Virus record (IMG/VR): IMGVR_UViG_3300010401_000026
Coordinates: 1-40,367 of that record
Reading direction: 5' to 3' (one strand)
DNA from: a virus
Length of the DNA: 40,367 nucleotides
Position numbers and translations under genes: made by a program. This document shows, piece after piece, positions 1-40,367 of this stretch. The notes under the pieces are model-generated. The model saw only the letters and a program-made list of their open reading frames with translations. It did not search any database and was not told where the DNA came from. How positions within the stretch are numbered: position 1 is the first letter of the stretch; each line of letters begins with the position of its first letter.

Positions 1-123
1 ATCTTCAACACCAAATTCTCCTAGACCAGAAATAATGCTTTCACATATCTTATGTACTTTCGTGCCTCTTTCAGCAGCGTGTGCAACGATTTCTGAAGGG
101 ATTTTTTCAAGGCCCGAAAAAGG
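1..123. repeat. Terminal direct repeat, left copy
   Basis: Bases 1-123 are identical to bases 40245-40367. An exonuclease reading frame passes through both copies in the same frame, and joining the ends restores one 182-residue protein. The simplest reading is an assembly overlap from a circular molecule (or a circularly permuted phage genome). A genuine short terminal repeat of a linear virion is less likely, because it would cut a gene. Confidence 0.93.
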
Positions 124-180
124 ATAAAGAATTTGCGTTATACGATAGTAATTTTCCTTATCTAAGGGCTTTTCTGTCAT
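1..180 (-). CDS. RecB/Cas4-like exonuclease, N-terminal part (continues at right end)
   Basis: This is the start of the exonuclease described at 39876-40367. The leftward frame begins with ATG at 180-178 and stays open to base 1. Across the circular junction it continues at 40244 and gives 182 residues in all. The N-terminal part contains a Gly-Thr-Lys-Val-His segment (His43 of the joined protein), the usual first motif of PD-(D/E)XK exonucleases of the RecB/Cas4 type. A forward frame over 81-263 is only the shadow of this gene. It is the first gene of the leftward recombination operon and has a plausible promoter at 238-266. Confidence 0.85.
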   Translation of the reverse strand, partial: MTEKPLDKENYYRITQILYPFSGLEKIPSEIVAHAAERGTKVHKICESIISGLGEFGVED

Positions 181-1343: not shown

Positions 1344-2372
1344 ATGTCTAATACCATATCATCCGAATGTATTCAAGTCAACGAAAAAGCGCAAACGAAT
1401 TCTACTTTTTCTCCTAATTTAAATACGATTGTCCGCGTTATCCACAATCGAGAAAATCCTTTTGTCCAACTCAACAAGCAAGCTTTATGGGATCCGCGCC
1501 TTTCCTTAAGAGCAATTGGTTTATGGGCAAGATGTCTTTCAAAGCCAGATAATTGGGTTTTTAATATTCCTGAATTAATAGATAAATGTTTAGAAGGCAG
1601 AGACAGCATATATAAAAGCATAAATGAATTAAAAGAGACTGGATATGTACTAATGATTGATAGACGCGAAAGGAAAAATGGAAAATATTTTGGAGGAACT
1701 TTGGAATATCTTTTCTTTGAGTTTCCTTTAACCCTTGAAGAGCAGGAAATATTCCTCAAAAAACATAAGTTACTAAGATTCAATAACAATCAAAATTCAA
1801 AAGTCGAAAAACACCAGCTTCCTGAAAATCCGGATCCTGGAATCAAGGATCCTGAAAAGGCGCACATTACTAATATAGATATATCTTCTTACGAAGATAT
1901 AGAGAAAGAAATAGATTATTCCTCCTTAAAGGTTCCAAAGGAACCGATCGCCCCTGACGGGGCTTCGCCGCCTGACGGCAGCTCAAAGAAGAGATTAAAA
2001 TCTCTAATTCAGCCTTCAGAGGAAGCAAAAGAGCTTGCGGAAGAAATGACCAAAGAGCTTGAAAAGGGAAGCGATCAATATCGTAAGCCAAAATCTATAA
2101 CCCCCATGGCTATTGAGATTGAAGCCATGCTCACCAAAGATAATCGGGATATCAAAACTATTTTCGAAGTTTTCATTTGGGCTCTCCACGACCATTTTTG
2201 GAAGGACAAGTTTTATAAGCCTAATCCGGCTAAATATCTCCGAGAGAAATTTGCTCAACTTCATGCCAAAATGACTGCACCCACGCCTAAAGAGAAACGT
2301 AAATTTGCTCCTTCCTCAAATTCTTCTGAAGCTCTGAAGACGCTTCAAAAAATGATGGAAACCGCATTATGA
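1344..2372 (+). CDS. Winged-helix replication initiator (DnaD-like organisation)
   Basis: A 342-residue protein. Residues about 40-125 match the winged-helix domain of phage and plasmid replication proteins: FVQLNKQALWDPRLSL..AIGLWARCLS, then NIPELIDK, GRDSIYKSINELKETGYV and a beta-wing. The middle (about 145-225) is charged, Pro/Ser-rich and probably flexible. The C-terminal part (about 245-320) has a helical segment with KPNPAKYLREKFAQL, as in DnaD-type replisome organisers. It overlaps the downstream DnaC-type loader by four bases (ATGA), the classic initiator-loader pair that brings host helicase to an origin. The ribosome site before ATG 1344 is weak (AGGC). The origin may lie in or near this gene. 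Family assignment is by pattern; DNA binding is inferred. Confidence 0.8.
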   Translation: MSNTISSECIQVNEKAQTNSTFSPNLNTIVRVIHNRENPFVQLNKQALWDPRLSLRAIGLWARCLSKPDNWVFNIPELIDKCLEGRDSIYKSINELKETGYVLMIDRRERKNGKYFGGTLEYLFFEFPLTLEEQEIFLKKHKLLRFNNNQNSKVEKHQLPENPDPGIKDPEKAHITNIDISSYEDIEKEIDYSSLKVPKEPIAPDGASPPDGSSKKRLKSLIQPSEEAKELAEEMTKELEKGSDQYRKPKSITPMAIEIEAMLTKDNRDIKTIFEVFIWALHDHFWKDKFYKPNPAKYLREKFAQLHAKMTAPTPKEKRKFAPSSNSSEALKTLQKMMETAL

Positions 2373-3214
2373 AAAATATTTGCAATGACTTTAAAGATTT
2401 CTTAAATTACATAAAAGATGATCCTAAAAATGTATTATGTCTATATTCAAATTCGCCTTTTGGAATAATTAAATTAAAAAAACCTGTAATGTCAAAGGAG
2501 CATTCTTGTGAGTATTGCGACAAAAAAGATCATATCGCCGTTTTTCTTCAGCCTGGACAATCATCTGATTATGTTTGGTTATGCATAAACACCATTTGCT
2601 TGGCCTTTAAGCCCGTATCGATGCCTAAGGAATATCAACCTACCTTGAAAGAATTTCGAGCCCTGGAATGGCCCAAATTCTGCGAAATAAATAATCTTGG
2701 CAATTTGGATCATAACGTCCGCTTTGAAGACATTATCCAAAGTGAAGGCAAAATCGAATATATGAAAAAATTCCTTAAAAAGCCCCAAGGAATAATTATT
2801 ATGCAAGGGGACAAAGGAACAGGAAAGACTTTTTCGGCTTTGGGTATATGTGAGTTTTATACGCGTAAAAGCACTTCCGTCATTTTTATGACTCAAAAAC
2901 AAATGTTGAATAAATGGTTGGAAACCTTTAAAGATAAAGAACTTAACGAATTTGAATATAAAGTCCGAAATGTTGAATTGCTTGTCATAGATGATTTTGG
3001 AATAGGGGAGATATCTTCAGGGTTTATGAGCTTTTTCATGGATCTAATAAATTTTAGAACTCGTTGGGATAGTAAAGGCACAGTAATTACAACAAATTTA
3101 GACGAAAAACTTCTTTCGGATTATTGCGGAGAGGCTCTTACCGATAGACTCGGTACTGGACAGTTTTTTGAATATAGGTCCGAAGAAAGTAGAAGAAAAA
3201 AAATTATTCTTTAA
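2369..3214 (+). CDS. DnaC-like helicase loader ATPase
   Basis: A 281-residue AAA+ protein. Residues 147-154 are a Walker A (GDKGTGKT), 204-211 a Walker B (LLVIDDFG), 241-243 a TTN sensor, and DRLGTG near 259-264 supplies a likely arginine finger. This is the usual layout of phage and bacterial DnaC/DnaI loaders. The N-terminus carries CxxC (47, 50) and a second cysteine pair (72, 77), suggesting a zinc-binding entry domain, as in some loaders. No replicative helicase gene is visible, so it probably delivers the host DnaB. Start ATG overlaps the initiator stop. Confidence 0.9.
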   Translation: MKNICNDFKDFLNYIKDDPKNVLCLYSNSPFGIIKLKKPVMSKEHSCEYCDKKDHIAVFLQPGQSSDYVWLCINTICLAFKPVSMPKEYQPTLKEFRALEWPKFCEINNLGNLDHNVRFEDIIQSEGKIEYMKKFLKKPQGIIIMQGDKGTGKTFSALGICEFYTRKSTSVIFMTQKQMLNKWLETFKDKELNEFEYKVRNVELLVIDDFGIGEISSGFMSFFMDLINFRTRWDSKGTVITTNLDEKLLSDYCGEALTDRLGTGQFFEYRSEESRRKKIIL

Positions 3215-3226
3215 ATGGAGAAATAC

Positions 3227-3550
3227 ATGATCGAAGTACAAAATATTCAACCAATTCAAAAGGGAAGTTTATTAGCAAAATGTGATGTACACATTAAACC
3301 CTGGAAATTAACTTTGGTAGATGTCAAGATATTTGAAAAGGGGGCAAATAGGTGGATAGGGCTCCCCGCACAGGAAATGATCACTTCCTCAGGCGAAAAA
3401 AAGTATAAAGAACTTATCCTATTCGATAACGATACCGTCAAAAGCAAATTCCGAGATGAAATCATGGGTGCTATAGATAAATTTTTATCTAGCAATCCCG
3501 ATATGAAACAAGAAGATGTCATTAAGGAAGACGATGATCTTCCTTTTTAA
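3227..3550 (+). CDS. SpoVG-like DNA-binding protein with SSB-like acidic tail
   Basis: 107 residues from the ATG at 3227, preferred over 3215 because GGAG lies six bases upstream of it. The body (VQNIQPIQKGSLLAKCDV.., then KIFEKGANRWIGLPAQE.. and a basic helix) resembles the SpoVG family found in phage replication modules. The protein ends in Asp-Asp-Asp-Leu-Pro-Phe, matching the C-terminal peptide by which bacterial SSB recruits partner proteins. There is no OB-fold SSB gene elsewhere in the window, so this protein may act as the phage's single-strand or recombination mediator. Fold and role are inferred. Confidence 0.65.
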   Translation: MIEVQNIQPIQKGSLLAKCDVHIKPWKLTLVDVKIFEKGANRWIGLPAQEMITSSGEKKYKELILFDNDTVKSKFRDEIMGAIDKFLSSNPDMKQEDVIKEDDDLPF

Positions 3551-3558
3551 GGAGGATT

Positions 3559-3753
3559 ATGATCGTAGAACATGCATTAACTTATAACAACAAGTTATCA
3601 GCTTCAAATATCGAATATTTAACTACAAAAGCTAATCGCCTCGGCAGAATCGGAAAGCAACTCATGCGAGTTTATTCCCAAGAAGATGCCGAGGGAACTC
3701 ACATTTATTTCGAGGTGCAAAATAGTAGCCCGACTTCCCCCAAAGCAGCCTAA
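3559..3753 (+). CDS. Small protein of unknown function
   Basis: 64 residues, not recognised, with a strong AAGGAGGATT ribosome site before the ATG. It contains a basic helical stretch (TTKANRLGRIGKQLMRVY) and a short C-terminal strand region. It sits between the SpoVG-like gene and a zinc-finger gene in the replication operon, and its last 68 bases overlap the next frame. Confidence 0.6.
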   Translation: MIVEHALTYNNKLSASNIEYLTTKANRLGRIGKQLMRVYSQEDAEGTHIYFEVQNSSPTSPKAA

Positions 3754-3907
3754 AGAATGCGAAATTTGTAAAGAAAATTTTATTCCTATTGCTTCCCATC
3801 AAAAAGTTTGCTCAGACCAATGTCGTAAAAATCATGCAATTATTTCTTCAAATGCACGTTGGGCTAATAATTCTAAAAGAAAAGTTAATAGAGGATATAA
3901 AAAATGA
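3686..3907 (+). CDS. Small zinc-finger protein
   Basis: Up to 73 residues with two cysteine pairs (CEICK near 25-29 and VCSDQC near 41-46), a pattern seen in small phage FCS/TRASH-like zinc knuckles, and a basic tail (NNSKRKVNRGYKK). The ATG at 3686 has no good ribosome site and overlaps the previous gene by 68 bases, so the true start may depend on translational coupling or lie slightly inside. It overlaps the next gene by four bases. Confidence 0.6.
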   Translation: MPRELTFISRCKIVARLPPKQPKECEICKENFIPIASHQKVCSDQCRKNHAIISSNARWANNSKRKVNRGYKK

Positions 3908-4197
3908 GTTTAAAATATGAAGAAATAGAAAAATTTCAAAAGAAATTTGAGGAGCGAGTCATCTGGCTTTCTGAAAATATTCCTCCCGATGATATTTACT
4001 GTTTTGCTCAGCAAATGCTTTTAGCTGCAGAATATTTTATTTATCGTCTTAATGACCAGATAGACGTTAGAGAATATATGGCAACTGATATCGACATGAA
4101 TAATTGGGTTAAAATGGTCTTAGGTATCTCAGCTAGTCAAATGAGTAATAAAAATTTCTTTAAGGATAATGATTGGAAAAACCCCTTAAAATCGTAA
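3904..4197 (+). CDS. Hypothetical protein between zinc finger and RusA
   Basis: 97 residues, acidic and helical, not recognised. It begins at an ATGA overlap with the preceding stop and runs 25 bases into the rusA frame. Aromatic-rich segments (IYCFAQQML..AAEYFIYRL) suggest a compact helical bundle without transmembrane character. Its place in the operon links it to replication or recombination. Confidence 0.65.
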   Translation: MSLKYEEIEKFQKKFEERVIWLSENIPPDDIYCFAQQMLLAAEYFIYRLNDQIDVREYMATDIDMNNWVKMVLGISASQMSNKNFFKDNDWKNPLKS

Positions 4198-4709
4198 TTC
4201 CCGGCTGCCCAGTTTCTCAAGCTAGAATGAAGGGGACTGCACGAGGTGGCTTCGTTAGGATGTATGACCCTAAAGCCAAAGAAAAGGATTTAGTGCGTCT
4301 TCAGCTTCTGAAGTTTAAACAAGAAAATCCTTTTTCATATCCTCGCATTTCTTTCCTATTTAAATTTCCTATTCCTCAATCAACTTCAAAGAAAGAAAAA
4401 AAAGTCTTGGAATCCGGCTTAATTAAGCATGATAAGAAGCCTGATTGCGACAATCTTGTAAAACTTTATCTTGATTGCATGACGGGAATTATTATCGAAG
4501 ATGACAAAAATGTTTCTTTAGGTTCAGTGAATAAACTTTATGATGAAGAGCCAAAAACTACTATTTTGATCCGTAGTACTGATCAAAAAATCGCTCCGTG
4601 GGAGCTGGATTCAGACTTTTCTCTCTTTGAAGAATCCGCCATACCGACGTCTTTTGAAATGGCTTCCCCACCCGATTCTTATAGCCAAGGCGCTCAAGCT
4701 CAAATGTAA
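4173..4709 (+). CDS. rusA: RusA-family Holliday junction resolvase
   Basis: 178 residues from a TTG start that is supported by AAGGA about six bases upstream. The RusA core is clear: IVIPGCPVSQARMK at the N-terminus, KPDCDNL at 89-95 and EDDKNV at 109-114, supplying the conserved acidic cluster (Asp91, Asp93, Asp110/111) of the family. RusA enzymes cut four-way junctions during recombination or late replication. The core ends near residue 135. The last ~45 residues are a Ser/Pro-rich extension encoded opposite the serine recombinase 3' end, which overlaps this gene convergently by 149 bases. Confidence 0.9.
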   Translation: MEKPLKIVIPGCPVSQARMKGTARGGFVRMYDPKAKEKDLVRLQLLKFKQENPFSYPRISFLFKFPIPQSTSKKEKKVLESGLIKHDKKPDCDNLVKLYLDCMTGIIIEDDKNVSLGSVNKLYDEEPKTTILIRSTDQKIAPWELDSDFSLFEESAIPTSFEMASPPDSYSQGAQAQM

Positions 4710-5304
4710 TTCGGTCATAACTCAATCCTTCCGACTCCAATTTTCTCATCATCTTTAGGATTTCTTGTTCCCTCGGATTCGGAATAAGCTTAAAGGGCTT
4801 TCCTTCACTCTTAGCGTCTTTATATGTCGACAATTGTGTTTCATCAAGTTGATAGCCATACCATACAGCCCCAACCCTCTCCATTTTAGCTCTCTTACGT
4901 GCTAATCCGCTACTTGTCGTCATCGAAATATTATCCCTTTCCATTTCGCCCAACATAGCGTAGACGTGAATAATATTCTTGTCGATATAGCTTTCTTTTA
5001 GGGAGTAAATCTTTACTTTTCTTTCCGATAAATGCTCATAAAGATTGGTTAACTCTGTTCCCTTTCTTGCAAGGCGATTAAGCTTGTAGACTACTAAAGT
5101 ATCACCACTTCTTAACTCATTGAGCATGGACGTTATCACAGGCCTTTGATCTAGGGATAGTCTTGATGTAGTGTCGGGCTCGTCAAATTCAAGGACTTTA
5201 TCGCCAGGTCTTTTCGCAGAATGAATGTAGTTCAAACATTCAATGCGCTGCATATCTGTAACCTGCTTGTCTGTAGAAACTCGATAGTAGGCTATATATC
5301 TCAT
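4561..5304 (-). CDS. Serine recombinase (resolvase/invertase family)
   Basis: A 247-residue protein opening RYIAYYRVSTDKQ with the catalytic Ser10 and Arg8. DTLVVYKLNRLAR (68-80) and the ERDNIS helix (122-127) follow, which fits the resolvase catalytic domain and the start of helix E. The C-terminal part (about 175-235, ending TSVWRILQRE) is the recombinase/HTH DNA-binding region. It lacks the long C-terminal domain of large serine integrases. In a circular prophage it would most simply resolve multimers, but inversion of a segment is not excluded. It is the last gene of the long leftward operon, starts by ATGA overlap with the gene at 5301-5537, and its 3' end is antisense to rusA. Confidence 0.9.
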   Translation of the reverse strand: MRYIAYYRVSTDKQVTDMQRIECLNYIHSAKRPGDKVLEFDEPDTTSRLSLDQRPVITSMLNELRSGDTLVVYKLNRLARKGTELTNLYEHLSERKVKIYSLKESYIDKNIIHVYAMLGEMERDNISMTTSSGLARKRAKMERVGAVWYGYQLDETQLSTYKDAKSEGKPFKLIPNPREQEILKMMRKLESEGLSYDRITFELERLGYKNRVGKPFQKTSVWRILQREKSLNPAPTERFFDQYYGSK

Positions 5305-6369: not shown

Positions 6370-6787
6370 TTTTCTCTCCTTTATTTAGTTTTTTCCAAAA
6401 CTTAATAACTATTTCGGCTTCTTTTTCTTCCCATGAATCTCTAATAAGTGTTGCAATTTCATCCAATTGTTCTTCAGTTAAAGAATGTATATAAAGCTTG
6501 CCTTGAGTAGGCTTTAGTTTCAAGTCATGTAATTCGCATTTTCCTTCTTTCCAAAAGGTGCATCCTTCTTTAGTTCGCGTTTCCCAAGGAGCGTAGCATC
6601 CTTCATGACCCTTTAAAGCAGGCTTTAACATGATATTTCCATCAGGCCAATCATCTAACATTAATCTTTCTGCATAACCTGCTTTCATTAAATTTATAAA
6701 ATCTTGTGGAGTTCCACAGCAAGGAGCGGTACAGGCGTTTTGACATTTAGAGCAATCGCATTCAGTTTCCATCATGGATAATTTCAT
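6362..6787 (-). CDS. YkgJ-like cysteine-cluster protein
   Basis: 141 residues. The N-terminus carries a dense cluster (CDCSKCQNACTAPCC, residues 9-23). Further cysteines lie in HEGCYAPW, EGCTFW and GKCELH, the spacing typical of YkgJ-type zinc/iron-chelating proteins. The C-terminal half is helical and charged. The family's function is not established; a metal-bound regulatory or modification role is possible. Starts at an ATGA overlap with the gene upstream. Confidence 0.7.
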   Translation of the reverse strand: MKLSMMETECDCSKCQNACTAPCCGTPQDFINLMKAGYAERLMLDDWPDGNIMLKPALKGHEGCYAPWETRTKEGCTFWKEGKCELHDLKLKPTQGKLYIHSLTEEQLDEIATLIRDSWEEKEAEIVIKFWKKLNKGEKNE

Positions 6788-7107
6788 TTCTTTGCCTCTC
6801 TAACTATTTTTTTTGCTTTCTTAATCTCTTGTTCCTGAAACCTTAGCAATATATTTGCCATATTTAAGCTTGCGGGGATAATTTCTTCCACGGATTGAAT
6901 CTGAGAATAATAAAGCTTCAGCAATCTATTATAATCCCAAATGATTGTGTTTGCCATGCAATTTAATTCCTCTGTCAAAAGGCCCGCTTTCATTGCTCTT
7001 AAATGATATTCTCGCATAGTTTTAAGTTGAACTTGGCCAATAACAAGGGCTACCATATAGTCTTCAAGGCTCTTTATTCCCTTTGGGTCTACGTAAATCA
7101 AATCCAT
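6784..7107 (-). CDS. Hypothetical helical protein
   Basis: 107 residues, mostly predicted helix (long runs such as LEDYMVALVIGQVQLKTMREYH and a basic C-terminus KKAKKIVREAKK). Not recognised. The start at 7107 overlaps the Xre-type gene by 44 bases and has a weak ribosome site; an in-frame ATG at 7056 would remove the overlap. It sits immediately downstream of a regulator gene, so a partner or antagonist role is conceivable but unproven. Confidence 0.6.
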   Translation of the reverse strand: MDLIYVDPKGIKSLEDYMVALVIGQVQLKTMREYHLRAMKAGLLTEELNCMANTIIWDYNRLLKLYYSQIQSVEEIIPASLNMANILLRFQEQEIKKAKKIVREAKK

Positions 7108-7273
7108 AATCGCTCATCAATTCCTTAATCTTTTTTACATATAATCTATGAGGTTCAAATTCCCCTCTCTCCCATCGTCCGACGGTCACAGTTTTGCAGT
7201 CTATTAAATCCGCAAATTCTTCTTGTGTCATCTCTAGAAAATGACGGAAAAGTTTTATATCCTGTTTATCCAT
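7064..7273 (-). CDS. Xre-type helix-turn-helix regulator
   Basis: 69 residues consisting almost only of an HTH_3 domain: LEMTQEEFADLIDCKTVTVGRWERGEFEP gives helix 2, turn and recognition helix. Proteins of this size bind short palindromes as dimers. It is embedded in the leftward operon rather than next to the operator cluster at 10136-10163, so its target is unknown. It could equally be the antitoxin-like partner of a neighbouring small protein. Confidence 0.82.
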   Translation of the reverse strand: MDKQDIKLFRHFLEMTQEEFADLIDCKTVTVGRWERGEFEPHRLYVKKIKELMSDYGFDLRRPKGNKEP

Positions 7274-7565
7274 CTTTCCTCATTCTCTTAAAAATTTCAA
7301 TTGCCTTCCTTTTTCTAAAGCTTTTGTCTAATGTCAAATATTCTCCGTAATCATTAAAAGTATTCATCAAATCCCAATGATTCACATATTCTAAGCCACC
7401 ATTAATCAAGCAACAGAGTTCTTCTTCATCTAGACTCATCCCAAGCAAATAGCATTCCCATCCTGTTTTGGCGTCAAAAAGTCTTCCCTCTGCAAAACAC
7501 TCCATAGCTTCGCACATAGGGCCCCAATTGGCTTTTAAACGCTCTTTAAGCCCATCGGGAAGCAT
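7266..7565 (-). CDS. Hypothetical acidic protein
   Basis: 99 residues, rich in Glu, Cys and Trp, helical, not recognised (opens MLPDGLKERLKANWGP, ends FKRMRKDG). It overlaps both neighbours (8 and 20 bases). Such small acidic proteins are common in phage early operons, but no function can be read from the sequence. Confidence 0.65.
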   Translation of the reverse strand: MLPDGLKERLKANWGPMCEAMECFAEGRLFDAKTGWECYLLGMSLDEEELCCLINGGLEYVNHWDLMNTFNDYGEYLTLDKSFRKRKAIEIFKRMRKDG

Positions 7566-25543: not shown

Positions 25544-26167
25544 ATGACTTATAATCCAGCAGTACCATTAAATAGTGATTCGCCAAGCCTTCTTCCTGGT
25601 CAATGCCAAGCCAACTTTACAAGGCTCCAAACATTACTGGGAGCAGACCATCAATTCAACTTATCCGCTGCCGCTAACGACGGTTATCACAATCTTATTC
25701 ATATGCTTCCTCAAGCTCCTGTCGGAGCCTTAGCTGGGACTGGAAGATTGTATGTTAAAATTGTCTCAGGAGTTGCTCAGCTTTTCTACATGACTAGCGC
25801 AGGAACCGAATATCAGATCACTCCAGCGGCTTCAGCGGCAGGCGTTTTTGCTGCTGTAAACTTTAATGGTACAGGCGCACCTTCTATAAGAAGCCAGACA
25901 AATGTAGCAAGCATAGCTAGATTATCAGGTTTTTCTTCAGGAGGTTATCGTATAACTTTTACAACTCCTGCCTCAAATAATAACTACATTGTCTCAGTTA
26001 CAGGTCAAAGAAATGATAGCGATAACGATCGTCCTGTTGGTGGATTTGTAATAGCTTCATCTTCATATGGCACTTCTCAAACTACAACAAGATTAGATGT
26101 TGGCTTCACAAGAGATACAAGTTTTCAGGATGTCTTAATGGGCAACGTAATCATTTATCAGGTATAA
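25544..26167 (+). CDS. Tail or fibre-associated structural protein
   Basis: 207 residues from the ATG at 25544 (AAGGAGTTTT upstream), not from 25493. The N-terminal part names its own context (SLLPGQCQANFTRLQTLLGADHQFNLSAAANDGYHN), a sequence type seen in phage proteins linking to fibres. The rest is beta-rich with a GGYRITFTTPASNNNYIVSVTG strand pattern typical of receptor-binding or fibre tip domains. Could be a head-attached or tail-attached fibre. Confidence 0.7.
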   Translation: MTYNPAVPLNSDSPSLLPGQCQANFTRLQTLLGADHQFNLSAAANDGYHNLIHMLPQAPVGALAGTGRLYVKIVSGVAQLFYMTSAGTEYQITPAASAAGVFAAVNFNGTGAPSIRSQTNVASIARLSGFSSGGYRITFTTPASNNNYIVSVTGQRNDSDNDRPVGGFVIASSSYGTSQTTTRLDVGFTRDTSFQDVLMGNVIIYQV

Positions 26168-28620
26168 TGAGTTATCAACCTTTCTTAATTGCAGCCTATG
26201 CGACTGGCCTTGATCAAAGGCTTCAGCCTTGGCTTTTGCCTAATGATGCTTTCGTCAATCTATTTGACGGTTTTGTGTATAGGGGAGTTACAAGCAAAAG
26301 AGATGGCTATTCAGGTCTTGCCAATGGTTTAAAATCCACCTACACAGAAAGCCGAATGGTTGTCCAAGTTTCTTATGGATATACTGTCTCCGGCGTTATT
26401 GATGGAGCCAATGATACATTCGCAATTCAATTGATTGCTCCTGCTGTTCCTGGAAGTTTGATTATTACTGGTTCAAATCCAGTTCAAACCGTAAATGATG
26501 ATGGAGCCGGCAATTTGACTGGCGACGGAACAGGAACAATAAATTATGTTACAGGTTTAGTTAATGTTGTATTTACTGCCCCTCCCGCTCTTGCATCTAC
26601 AATTACCGTGGAATATGGAAATTATAGTGTCGGTGACGGCACAGCAGGCCCTTATTTATTTACAGCTGCAAATACCCCTCTGAGAAGAGGGACAATCGTC
26701 ATTACCGCTGGTGCTCAATCTGCTGTAGATGATGGAGTAGGTGGATTTATTACAACCCCAGCTGGGGGATCGGGATCAGTAGACTATACTACAGGGGATA
26801 TTAGCGTTACATTCAATGCAGTAGTTGCTTCTGGAACTCCAATAACTATTACCTATGATTATCATCAGGGTCTTCCAGTAATGGGAGTAATGAATTTCTT
26901 CCCTAATGATAATACGAGGCAATTAATTGTCGTTGATACTCAATATGTTAATAAATACAATCCTTCAACTGATAGATTAGAATATGTAGATTCAGCAGGC
27001 ACTTATCCTTATAGCGGGGATTTCCAAGACTTTTTCTCATGGGTAAACTATTCAGACGCTTCTTCAAATCCGCGCCTTCTTTTCTGTAATGGAGTCCCTG
27101 GCGATGTGGTGCAGCAATGGGATGGAACAACATTGCAAGATTATGCTCCTACTTTTACGATTGGATCATTAAATGCACGTCAACTCTTTAACGTTAGGGA
27201 TCGCCTAGTTTTATTTCAAACAATAGAAGCAGGGACTTTCTATCCAAGAAGAATTAGAATTTCAGGGACGGGAATAAATTCCGATAATTTTGATAATACA
27301 GCTACGGGCGCTGGATTCATTGATATTCCTGATAATACATTTTTCTATGGAGCAGCGTTTAACCGCGATGACATTCTCTTCTTCACTGAAGCTGCAACGT
27401 GGCAATTTAAATATACTGGAAATGATGTTACTCCCTTCATTCTTGAAAAAGTGGATGGAAGCAGAGGAAGCAAAGCAGCATTCTCGGTGATTTCTTATCT
27501 CAATAGAACCATGGCCGCAAGCCCTAGAGGGCTGATTATTTCAGATGGTTATAGCGTAGATAGAATGGATGAAATGATTCCTAACTTCGCTTTCAACAAT
27601 ATTAACGATGAATTCTTTGAGTCATGCTTCTCCGGATTTCTGGATGAAGATAGAGACGTTTATATGCTTTATCCTTCTGATGGCGACGTTAGACCTGCTC
27701 TTGTGCCAATAGCCTCTTCAGATAGAATTTTAGTTAATAACTTCGAAGAAGACAACTTTGCTATTTATAGAATTCCAATGTCGTGCATGGGTAATTTTCA
27801 GGTAGCCTTCGGTATTCAATGGAGTGATTTAACGGCCGAAGCTGGCTTTCCTGACTGGGATGCTCTTTCAGATAAATATGAAACGTGGAATGCATTTCCT
27901 TACTCTAAAGGCACTCCTGTAACTGTTGGAGGAGGCCATAAAGGTGAGGTGTGGAAATTAAATGATAATGAAAGTGAAGACAATCCTCTTAAAATAAGAG
28001 ACATTCAAATTCTTAATGAAGACTTTGTTCGAGTAACTTCCGACTGGAATAATTATAATATCGGCGATTACATTTCTTTCAAAGATGTGGGAGGGATGAC
28101 CCAGATTAATGGTAAACAAGGGGCAATCGAAGCTACTCCCACTCCCTATAATGTCTTTGATGTGAAGATTAAGACAAATACATTTGATGCATACACAAGC
28201 GGTGGAGAATGTGCTAAGTCCATTCCATTTGAGTTTCTAACAAAACAGCTTAATCCTTTTGCTGAAATGGATAAGAAAATCAGAATTGGTTGGATTTATT
28301 TCTATGTGGAAGCAGTCGAATCAGATTTAACTGATGAAGATGGAAATCTTCTTCCAGCTATTTTAACAGTCGATGTCTTTACAAATGATAATGTTAATAA
28401 TCCTTCTCGGCCTGTACAAAATGCCAATGTCCCCAACTTCACATATCAAGTAAATTGTACAAATGAAACCGGGGTAACAGGAAATAAGAAATGGGTAAAA
28501 ATCTGGATCAATCAGACGGCGCGTTTCTTACAATTTAGGGTCAGAAACAATCAAGCTGGGGCTCAGGTCAAGGTTCATGCGATGATGCCTGGAATGGCCC
28601 CTGTAGGACGTTTAATATGA
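26167..28620 (+). CDS. Tail nozzle/tube-type protein with duplicated beta domain
   Basis: 817 residues. It opens FLIAAYATGLDQRLQPWLLPNDAFVNLFDGFVYRGVTSKRDGY, the start pattern of podovirus tail nozzle proteins (P22 gp10/T7 gp12-type role). Residues about 72-160 and 160-232 are a tandem duplication of one beta domain, each with GSLIITGSNPVQTVNDDGAG.. / GTIVITAGAQSAVDDGVGG.. followed by INYVTGLVNVVF / VDYTTGDISVTF and ITVEY / ITITY. The rest continues as a beta-propeller-like region (FPNDNTRQLIVVDTQYVNKY). Overlaps the previous gene by one base and the next by four. Confidence 0.82.
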   Translation: MSYQPFLIAAYATGLDQRLQPWLLPNDAFVNLFDGFVYRGVTSKRDGYSGLANGLKSTYTESRMVVQVSYGYTVSGVIDGANDTFAIQLIAPAVPGSLIITGSNPVQTVNDDGAGNLTGDGTGTINYVTGLVNVVFTAPPALASTITVEYGNYSVGDGTAGPYLFTAANTPLRRGTIVITAGAQSAVDDGVGGFITTPAGGSGSVDYTTGDISVTFNAVVASGTPITITYDYHQGLPVMGVMNFFPNDNTRQLIVVDTQYVNKYNPSTDRLEYVDSAGTYPYSGDFQDFFSWVNYSDASSNPRLLFCNGVPGDVVQQWDGTTLQDYAPTFTIGSLNARQLFNVRDRLVLFQTIEAGTFYPRRIRISGTGINSDNFDNTATGAGFIDIPDNTFFYGAAFNRDDILFFTEAATWQFKYTGNDVTPFILEKVDGSRGSKAAFSVISYLNRTMAASPRGLIISDGYSVDRMDEMIPNFAFNNINDEFFESCFSGFLDEDRDVYMLYPSDGDVRPALVPIASSDRILVNNFEEDNFAIYRIPMSCMGNFQVAFGIQWSDLTAEAGFPDWDALSDKYETWNAFPYSKGTPVTVGGGHKGEVWKLNDNESEDNPLKIRDIQILNEDFVRVTSDWNNYNIGDYISFKDVGGMTQINGKQGAIEATPTPYNVFDVKIKTNTFDAYTSGGECAKSIPFEFLTKQLNPFAEMDKKIRIGWIYFYVEAVESDLTDEDGNLLPAILTVDVFTNDNVNNPSRPVQNANVPNFTYQVNCTNETGVTGNKKWVKIWINQTARFLQFRVRNNQAGAQVKVHAMMPGMAPVGRLI

Positions 28621-38882: not shown

Positions 38883-39110
38883 TTAACCTGCCAATTTAAC
38901 TTGAGGGGGATTCAATGTTGCTTCCAAAGAGCCCTCTTGCTTTTGAGATTGTTCTTGCTCTTGCTGCATTGTGTCATCTTGGCCATATTGGATAATGTTT
39001 TCGTTATTCAAAACACATCCAGTCATAAAAAGAGATATAAATGCTACAATCACAATGAGAATGACTATAGTAGTTATAGCTATCATAGACCCGTTTTCTT
39101 TATTTTCCAT
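38883..39110 (-). CDS. Small membrane protein or lipoprotein candidate
   Basis: 75 residues: hydrophobic segment at about 9-29 (MIAITTIVILIVIVAFISLF), then MTGC32 which resembles a lipobox, then a Gln-rich hydrophilic tail (TMQQEQEQSQKQEG) ending PPQVKLAG. It could be a signal-anchored or lipidated protein, for example of the spanin or exclusion type; the assignment is weak. Overlaps the annealing-protein gene by 11 bases. Confidence 0.6.
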   Translation of the reverse strand: MENKENGSMIAITTIVILIVIVAFISLFMTGCVLNNENIIQYGQDDTMQQEQEQSQKQEGSLEATLNPPQVKLAG

Positions 39111-39879
39111 TTTTTTCCTTTTTGTTTTTCCAAACTTTAAATTTTTCCTTAAGAGATTCTTCGTCTTTGAGAAACTCTTCTAGAGTTTTGGTATATGTCC
39201 AATTGAAATGAACTCTTACTTCTTCAAAGAATTTCAGAAGTTTTTCATGGTCTTCTTGAGGAAATAATTCGAGCAATTTCTTAGCTAATTCTTCTTTTTT
39301 AGAAGGGGATTCTTCTTCGATGGGAATGTCTTTTGGAATATCAATATCTGATTCTAATGCTTTAATTTCCCCCTCGACGTAACAGCCTCCTATCACATCC
39401 GGGGCTAATTGGCGTGCTAGGCGGCTTATAGCCCTCGCAAAGAGCATATCCTTTGGATTCTTTACCCAACCGCCGCCAGGCTTAATTAAACTAGCTTTCT
39501 GGGCCTCTTCTATTGAATAGGTTGAAGTAACAGTATCTCCCGAATCTTGTCGCTTACCAATAAGCGTGCAAATGGTATCGGAAGTTTCCTTAATGGTAAT
39601 GCTTATCCCATTGCGCCTCATTAGGGCATTCATAAGCCGTGCACTGATTTCCATCTTGCCATTGATTAATTGAAGTCCCCCATTGAGTGCTAGCATTGGA
39701 GAAATACCTAGTTCCCTTGCGGCAAGTATAGTTATCATGATGCCATTAATGTCTCCATAATTTCTGTAGAGTTTGCTTTCACAAGCATGTTTTGCAAGGC
39801 ATTGAAAAACTTGCATCTCGTGGGCAGAGGGAATGCCTTTATTGACATCATCCGGACTGCGAATCATAATTTCGTTCAT
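39100..39879 (-). CDS. RecT-like single-strand annealing protein
   Basis: 259 residues. The core (ILAARELGISPMLALNGGLQLINGKMEISARLMNALMRRNG..., then WVKNPKDMLFARAISRLARQLAPDVIGGCYVEGEI) matches the phage RecT-type annealing pattern, with the 'ARA(L/I)SRLARxLxPDVIGG' motif. The C-terminal part is an acidic, Lys-rich coil that could bind partner proteins. It is ATGA-coupled to the exonuclease upstream, the usual exonuclease-annealase recombination pair. Assignment by motif only. Confidence 0.75.
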   Translation of the reverse strand: MNEIMIRSPDDVNKGIPSAHEMQVFQCLAKHACESKLYRNYGDINGIMITILAARELGISPMLALNGGLQLINGKMEISARLMNALMRRNGISITIKETSDTICTLIGKRQDSGDTVTSTYSIEEAQKASLIKPGGGWVKNPKDMLFARAISRLARQLAPDVIGGCYVEGEIKALESDIDIPKDIPIEEESPSKKEELAKKLLELFPQEDHEKLLKFFEEVRVHFNWTYTKTLEEFLKDEESLKEKFKVWKNKKEKNGK

Positions 39880-40367
39880 TTTCTCTCCCTGAAAAAGTGA
39901 TTAAACACATTGAGTATCTCTAAGAAGAAATTGTCGTTAACTGGATACTCATAAATCTTTGGTTCTTTGCCATGCTTGTTGAGATGAAGAAACATGATTT
40001 TCTTGATGTCATAGCCATTTTTCTTTGCTAGCATGGCATAGGCAGAACCTTGCGCTGGCCATGTTTTAGAAGGTCTAGAGGATGTTTTTAGATCTACAAT
40101 TGCCATGCCATCTTCTATTTTGACAATAAGATCGATTTGTCCCGTTATTTTCCTCTCATCATCCCAGAATCTTTCTTCCATGGAAATGACCGCAGGATTA
40201 TGTGCCCACCATTTTTTGAAGCTTTCTACATATCCCCACGTTTCATCTTCAACACCAAATTCTCCTAGACCAGAAATAATGCTTTCACATATCTTATGTA
40301 CTTTCGTGCCTCTTTCAGCAGCGTGTGCAACGATTTCTGAAGGGATTTTTTCAAGGCCCGAAAAAGG
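39876..40367 (-). CDS. RecB/Cas4-like exonuclease, C-terminal part and repeat-end copy
   Basis: The reading frame is open from the window end. It completes the 182-residue protein that starts at base 180. GQIDLI (95-100, Asp98) and AIVDLKTS (108-115, Asp111 and Lys113) form the PD-(D/E)XK core, and WPAQGSAYAML contains the Q-xxx-Y motif of the RecB/Cas4/YqaJ class. Small exonucleases of this type resect DNA for an annealing protein, here the next gene. Internal ATG at 40181 would drop the N-terminal motif and is not preferred. Confidence 0.88.
   Translation of the reverse strand, partial: PFSGLEKIPSEIVAHAAERGTKVHKICESIISGLGEFGVEDETWGYVESFKKWWAHNPAVISMEERFWDDERKITGQIDLIVKIEDGMAIVDLKTSSRPSKTWPAQGSAYAMLAKKNGYDIKKIMFLHLNKHGKEPKIYEYPVNDNFFLEILNVFNHFFRERK
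40245..40367. repeat. Terminal direct repeat, right copy
   Basis: Identical to bases 1-123. See the left copy. Gene continuity across the junction argues for circular DNA. Confidence 0.93.

Follow-up and report, generated by a model that had tools for sequence, protein, structure and literature searches.

A phage protein with a predicted SpoVG fold and an SSB-type tip is a candidate single-stranded DNA-binding protein

The gene at 3227-3550 and its product

The DNA analysed here, hereafter the window, is the whole 40,367-nt stretch of IMG/VR virus record IMGVR_UViG_3300010401_000026, and the gene in question lies at positions 3227-3550, encoding a protein in which a body resembling SpoVG is followed by a C-terminal tip of the kind carried by bacterial single-stranded DNA (ssDNA)-binding proteins (SSBs). 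The mechanically called open reading frame (ORF) begins at 3215, 12 bases ahead of the MIEV methionine at 3227. The start is placed at this methionine because homologues begin at the same MIEV or MLEV and a GGAG lies six nt upstream, and GGAG or AGGA precedes the conserved start in most relatives. An earlier reading made from the letters alone (the sequence-only reading) had given the same limits for the ORF, which agree with the start seen in the homologues. The last residues of the protein are KEDDDLPF, with the stop codon at 3548-3550. The parts of the gene are as follows:

3227-3550, plus strand: SpoVG-fold (predicted), SSB-tailed protein of 107 aa, MIEV...DDDLPF
3217-3220, plus strand: Shine-Dalgarno GGAG, 6 nt upstream of the 3227 start
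3227-3493, plus strand: SpoVG-like body, residues 1-89, with six beta strands and then one helix (69-89) in the model
3494-3529, plus strand: linker, residues 90-101, less conserved and of low model confidence, with a predicted local distance difference test (pLDDT) score <50 from residue 98
3530-3547, plus strand: SSB-type C-terminal tip DDDLPF, from sequence, alignment and codon counts

The body is of SpoVG type, as the sequence-only reading had proposed, and this is borne out by profile matches, profile alignment and structure prediction. Against Pfam PF04026 (SpoVG) the window protein gives E = 0.006-0.014 and 17.2 bits, which is below the 29.6-bit cut-off, and the same profile is matched by 8/8 scanned family members (best E 1.2e-4) and, at 1e-6 to 6e-6, in three more distant contigs. 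Alignment of the family profile with a SpoVG profile in hhalign was collinear, with a probability of 83% and P = 9e-6, the SpoVG profile consisting of nine sequences (that of B. subtilis SpoVG plus eight taken from phage-labelled contigs); either profile against an exonuclease or loader profile gave ≤0.5%. In the AlphaFold2 (AF2) model (pLDDT 78.7; predicted template modelling score, pTM, 0.66), six strands are followed by a single helix, and confidence is low in the tail from residue 98 onwards. All confident Foldseek matches to this model in the PDB are SpoVG chains, with a probability of 1.0 for all six top chains, and the VIA Z scores for SpoVG are 10.7, 10.2 and 10.1, the next fold reaching 5.2. 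An oligonucleotide/oligosaccharide-binding (OB) fold, the outcome that the sequence-only reading had named as contrary to it, did not appear among the Foldseek and VIA matches to the PDB, and the protein has no Pfam match to the OB-fold domain PF00436. VIA also gave weak matches to coronavirus nsp9, Pur-alpha and polo-box domains, and calmodulin and high mobility group (HMG) matches among the search results were dismissed as chance. PDB sequence searches were uninformative, as were the PHROG results for the 107-aa protein, which yielded no informative family.

In comparison with the SpoVG family (B. subtilis 2IA9, S. epidermidis 2I9X/2I9Z), the likeness lies in the predicted fold over residues 1-94 and in a weak, collinear profile similarity, whereas the window protein falls below the Pfam cut-off, carries an SSB tip and lacks the K/R doublet that the SpoVG proteins of S. 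aureus and B. burgdorferi require to bind DNA (PMC3688583). This doublet, K50-R51 in S. aureus SpoVG, is Q49-E50 in the window protein, and both positions are basic in 4/25 homologues. On the strength of its model the protein is a divergent SpoVG-fold protein, with the predicted fold but not the Pfam score or the DNA-binding doublet, and since that doublet is not kept it does not appear to be an ordinary SpoVG regulator. Across the alignment of 25 proteins, in which relatives are 22-82% identical to the window protein, seven residues are invariant (K12, W26, W43, P47, F75, P106 and F107), and R42, K59 and Y60 are nearly so in the family. The aromatic and basic set formed by K12, W26 and W43 together with R42, K59 and Y60 would suit stacking on ssDNA.

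The SSB-type DDDLPF tail reported in the sequence-only reading is present and is a conserved feature, with terminal PF in 25/25 aligned homologues vs 11/2126 unrelated genes of the fetched loci used as background; four of these background genes look tip-like, one of which is a true OB-fold SSB. The residue ahead of PF is always L, F, V, M or I, with acidic residues before that, and synonymous changes are seen in the P (CCA/CCT/CCG/CCC) and F (TTT/TTC) codons, although the two residues themselves stay constant. Like bacterial SSBs (PF00436; E. coli ...DDDIPF, S. mutans SsbA ...DDDLPF), the protein joins a body through a flexible linker (pLDDT <50 from residue 98) to an acidic C-terminal tip ending hydrophobic-Pro-Phe, and its gene has a place in a replication/recombination cluster. 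Unlike them, it has no OB fold or PF00436 match, and its linker, of ~12 residues and low confidence in the model, is short and nearly fixed in length.

The phage genome and its replication/recombination cluster

The first and last 123 bp of the window are identical, and the exonuclease gene is continuous across the junction of the two ends. Although the database lists the record as linear, it therefore looks like a closed, apparently complete genome of 40,244 bp. The features of the region around the gene are:

40245-40367, no strand: 123-bp copy of window 1-123, a perfect terminal direct repeat
39876-40367, minus strand: PD-(D/E)XK exonuclease, the N-terminal part of which runs over the circle junction to window 1-180
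39100-39879, minus strand: RecT-like single-strand annealing protein, a possible partner of the tip
1344-2372, plus strand: DnaD/O-like replication initiator, from PHROG matches and synteny
2369-3214, plus strand: DnaC-like helicase loader, directly upstream of the gene and the fixed neighbour in the slot test described below
3559-3753, plus strand: small ORF, synteny cluster 17
3686-3907, plus strand: NinG/treble-clef-like small protein
3904-4197, plus strand: conserved small protein with a PPDDIY motif, synteny cluster 10
4173-4709, plus strand: RusA Holliday-junction resolvase (PF05866, E 1.2e-20)

On the opposite strand, across the circle junction and a short way upstream of the replication cluster, are the RecT and exonuclease genes, and all three recombination functions named in the sequence-only reading were recovered, namely RusA (through PF05866), an annealase of RecT type and an exonuclease of PD-(D/E)XK type. 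Synteny places the gene within a replication/recombination cluster in those relatives that were examined, and it keeps its place where the adjoining DnaC-type loader gives way to DnaB (L007:4207-5616) or to a Toprim-DnaB primase-helicase (L014:607-2058). No DNA polymerase was recognised among the proteins scanned, and for this reason the phage probably uses the host replisome, where SSB-tip contacts matter.

Several further observations were made on these genomes. A tail-less second SpoVG-like paralogue lies near the exonuclease in several relatives (L010:2817-3140, L016:2735-3028 and L034:2151-2507), with a profile similarity of 94.7%, and no ORF of this kind was seen in the corresponding stretch of the window. 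A resolvase gene at 4561-5304 on the minus strand converges on RusA with a ~150-nt overlap of the 3' ends (4561-4709), and the same order of neighbours is found in relatives. The 817-aa structural-region protein at window 26167-28620 contains a match to the Pfam ubiquitin-activating-enzyme FCCH domain at residues 628-682, which probably reflects a shared small beta fold.

A profile search with positive controls found no PF00436 SSB in the window, in 20 relatives or in 34 further records (record G020 being counted in both sets), and the same search does detect an SSB in two more distant phage records. The statement of the sequence-only reading that the genome is without a recognisable OB-fold SSB thus stands for PF00436; for SSBs of the DUF669, Enc34 and T7 types, 0/20 records each gave a match in searches without a working positive control. 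L136, a distant phage with a loader of DnaC type, encodes a genuine OB-fold SSB, ending in HEEIPF, 2.3 kb downstream of the loader, several genes on.

Alternative PF-tipped proteins and wider distribution

For the slot test, contigs were gathered on the basis of a related exonuclease or loader, without reference to the SpoVG-like gene. Eight loci with the loader or exonuclease and without the SpoVG-like gene (L107, L108, L112, L113, L114, L122, L123 and L031) bear a second family in the same slot, after the DnaC-type loader and before RusA, the proteins of which are ~96-105 aa long and begin MSNIKFVSHESFPEDQYTKE. These too end in PF, in 12/12 copies (10 aligned, plus those of L031 and L188); their linkers vary in length, being long in two members, and one copy is in a contig of a metagenome-assembled genome (MAG). 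The two families are mutually exclusive, with the second found in 0/26 first-family records and the first in 0/10 second-family records. There is no significant sequence similarity between them (hhalign 5.7 and 10.7%), the weak alignments being collinear. The AF2 model of the second family, which is of low confidence (pLDDT 69.8), also best matches SpoVG (Foldseek 0.96), with VIA Z scores of 8.1, 8.0 and 7.7 against 5.7 for the next fold, values near the level where common arrangements occur; the two slot families are therefore linked by predicted fold only. A third family, with a PF end and a long Q/P-rich linker, is present in more distant exonuclease-bearing phages (L052:3620-4087, L053:1826-2251 and L054:1711-2154), and PF is absent from the ends of its relatives in L048 and L051.

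When two members of the family and two slot relatives were compared by tblastn with 50,697 INPHARED records of known phages, nothing convincing emerged, and a scan of bacterial genomes with the family found no relative. An exonuclease scan of bacterial genomes gave one Bacteroidales MAG contig, and the same MAG has a 33-kb contig with the second slot family, matches which are too weak to name a host.

A probable SSB-like role and what it would mean

Based on sequence comparison and the predicted structure, the protein, which occurs in a group of uncultured phages, is probably the phage's own non-OB, SpoVG-fold ssDNA-binding hub, with an SSB-like role. The earlier proposal that it may replace SSB is well supported, on comparative grounds, by a complete-looking genome without known SSB families, the slot in the replication operon, the invariant tip and the alternation with another PF-tipped protein. 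The SpoVG-fold body would coat or mark ssDNA arising from phage replication and from exonuclease/annealase recombination, and the flexible acidic DDDLPF tip would dock in pockets that normally take the host SSB tip, through which partners of host SSB, or the phage's own annealase of RecT type or its helicase loader, may be recruited to phage ssDNA. Listeria SpoVG binds ssDNA weakly and nonspecifically with a dissociation constant of 1.2 µM and shows no significant binding of double-stranded DNA (PMC4959528), and the SSB tail of phage HK620, NDYPPF, is needed to recruit and stimulate the annealase Sak4 (PMC5928155). Since it does not have the OB fold, the protein is not filed as a member of the SSB family, and would be SSB-like in its working if the above holds.

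A number of points weigh against such a role. The body is weakly basic, with a net charge of 0 to +5 across the family and +2 in the window, and RNA is bound by Listeria SpoVG more tightly than ssDNA (273 nM vs 1.2 µM; PMC4959528). An OB-fold protein that has diverged very far could escape the profile searches. A PF end is missing from all nine SpoVG-family genes checked in gut phage-labelled contigs, the xPF tip being, as judged by sequence, peculiar to this branch of SpoVG-family proteins. Finally, L120, a relative by its loader, has no PF-tipped protein after the loader (6723-7314) and neither family in the record, so the function is not universal.

The protein might instead, in line with the other half of the sequence-only reading (competition for SSB partners), act as a decoy or adaptor that does not coat ssDNA, its multivalent tips competing with host SSB for partners (candidates being RecO, PriA, RecG, RecQ, ExoI and PolIII chi) or bridging these to the phage initiator or loader. 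The tip alone would suffice for this, and the weak charge of the body and the adjoining helicase loader gene would fit. However, no known SSB family was found in the phage, so the ssDNA role would fall to host SSB; SpoVG is the best structural match for the model of the other slot family as well, which suggests that the body matters; and ssDNA binding has been measured for a SpoVG (PMC4959528). This explanation is consequently considered rather unlikely. More improbable still is a SpoVG-type regulator, or a sporulation-modulating gene, with an incidental acidic tail: whilst SpoVG proteins are known to act as regulators that bind DNA and RNA (PMC3688583, PMC4959528), and spoVG genes of gut phages appear in a list of sporulation genes (PMC10294663), the replaced basic doublet, the invariant tail and the location of the gene in a replication/recombination cluster argue otherwise.

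The C-terminus itself could be read in other ways. LPF suffices for degradation by ClpXP in some Streptococcus mutans strains (PMC5143411), but that the end is a proteolysis signal and not a docking tip is very improbable, as there is no LPF recognition in E. coli, S. gordonii or S. sanguinis (PMC5143411), the third-last residue varies among L, F, V, M and I in the phages, and the acidic residues are kept as in SSB. The motif is short, which would favour a chance resemblance, yet this is refuted by the comparative data, through the excess of PF ends over background, the synonymous codon variation at invariant residues and the same end in a second family in the same slot.

The SSB-like role proposed for the window protein can be set beside several known systems. 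The HK620 SSB is likewise a phage protein, the last six residues of which recruit a phage annealase, within a neighbourhood of recombination genes, but it is of the DUF669 family, a distant SSB homologue with no match here, and the annealase of the window is of RecT type. SpoVG-family proteins also occur in phi29-like phages (phiCP7R I3PV27; gut contig MT836115). In MT836115 the gene (L159:3943-4242) lies between a type B DNA polymerase and the gp16 packaging ATPase and has no xPF tip; this genome encodes its own polymerase, whereas none was found in the window phage. Precedents for SSBs without a clear OB fold are provided by the Bam35/phi29 SSB group, N4 Drc, adenovirus DBP and the Thermoproteales SSB, although these are different proteins and SpoVG is unmentioned in that account (PMC8276246). 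No described SpoVG-fold SSB was found in a literature search that missed most subscription journals and all preprints.

A wider possibility, which is put forward tentatively and is more doubtful than not, is that the SpoVG fold is a general, independent phage ssDNA-binding module. At least two, perhaps three or more, strongly diverged tip-bearing subfamilies would then serve as non-OB SSBs (the window family, the KFVSHESFPEDQYTKE family and possibly the L052-L054 family), tip-less versions would do the same job in phi29-like phages with their own polymerase, and bacterial SpoVG itself would be related to an SSB of this kind.

Most SSBs share the OB fold. If the SSB-like role is true, the joining of an authentic SSB tip to a SpoVG-fold body would show the tip to be a docking code that can be carried by different folds. 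Such a role would also suggest a function for the SpoVG genes of phages, which have been catalogued among sporulation genes (PMC10294663), and would provide a point of comparison for the long-standing question of SpoVG function. Bacterial defence systems, for example AbpAB (PMC10732053), are triggered by phage SSBs, and one that combines a foreign fold with a native tip would bear on what such systems recognise.
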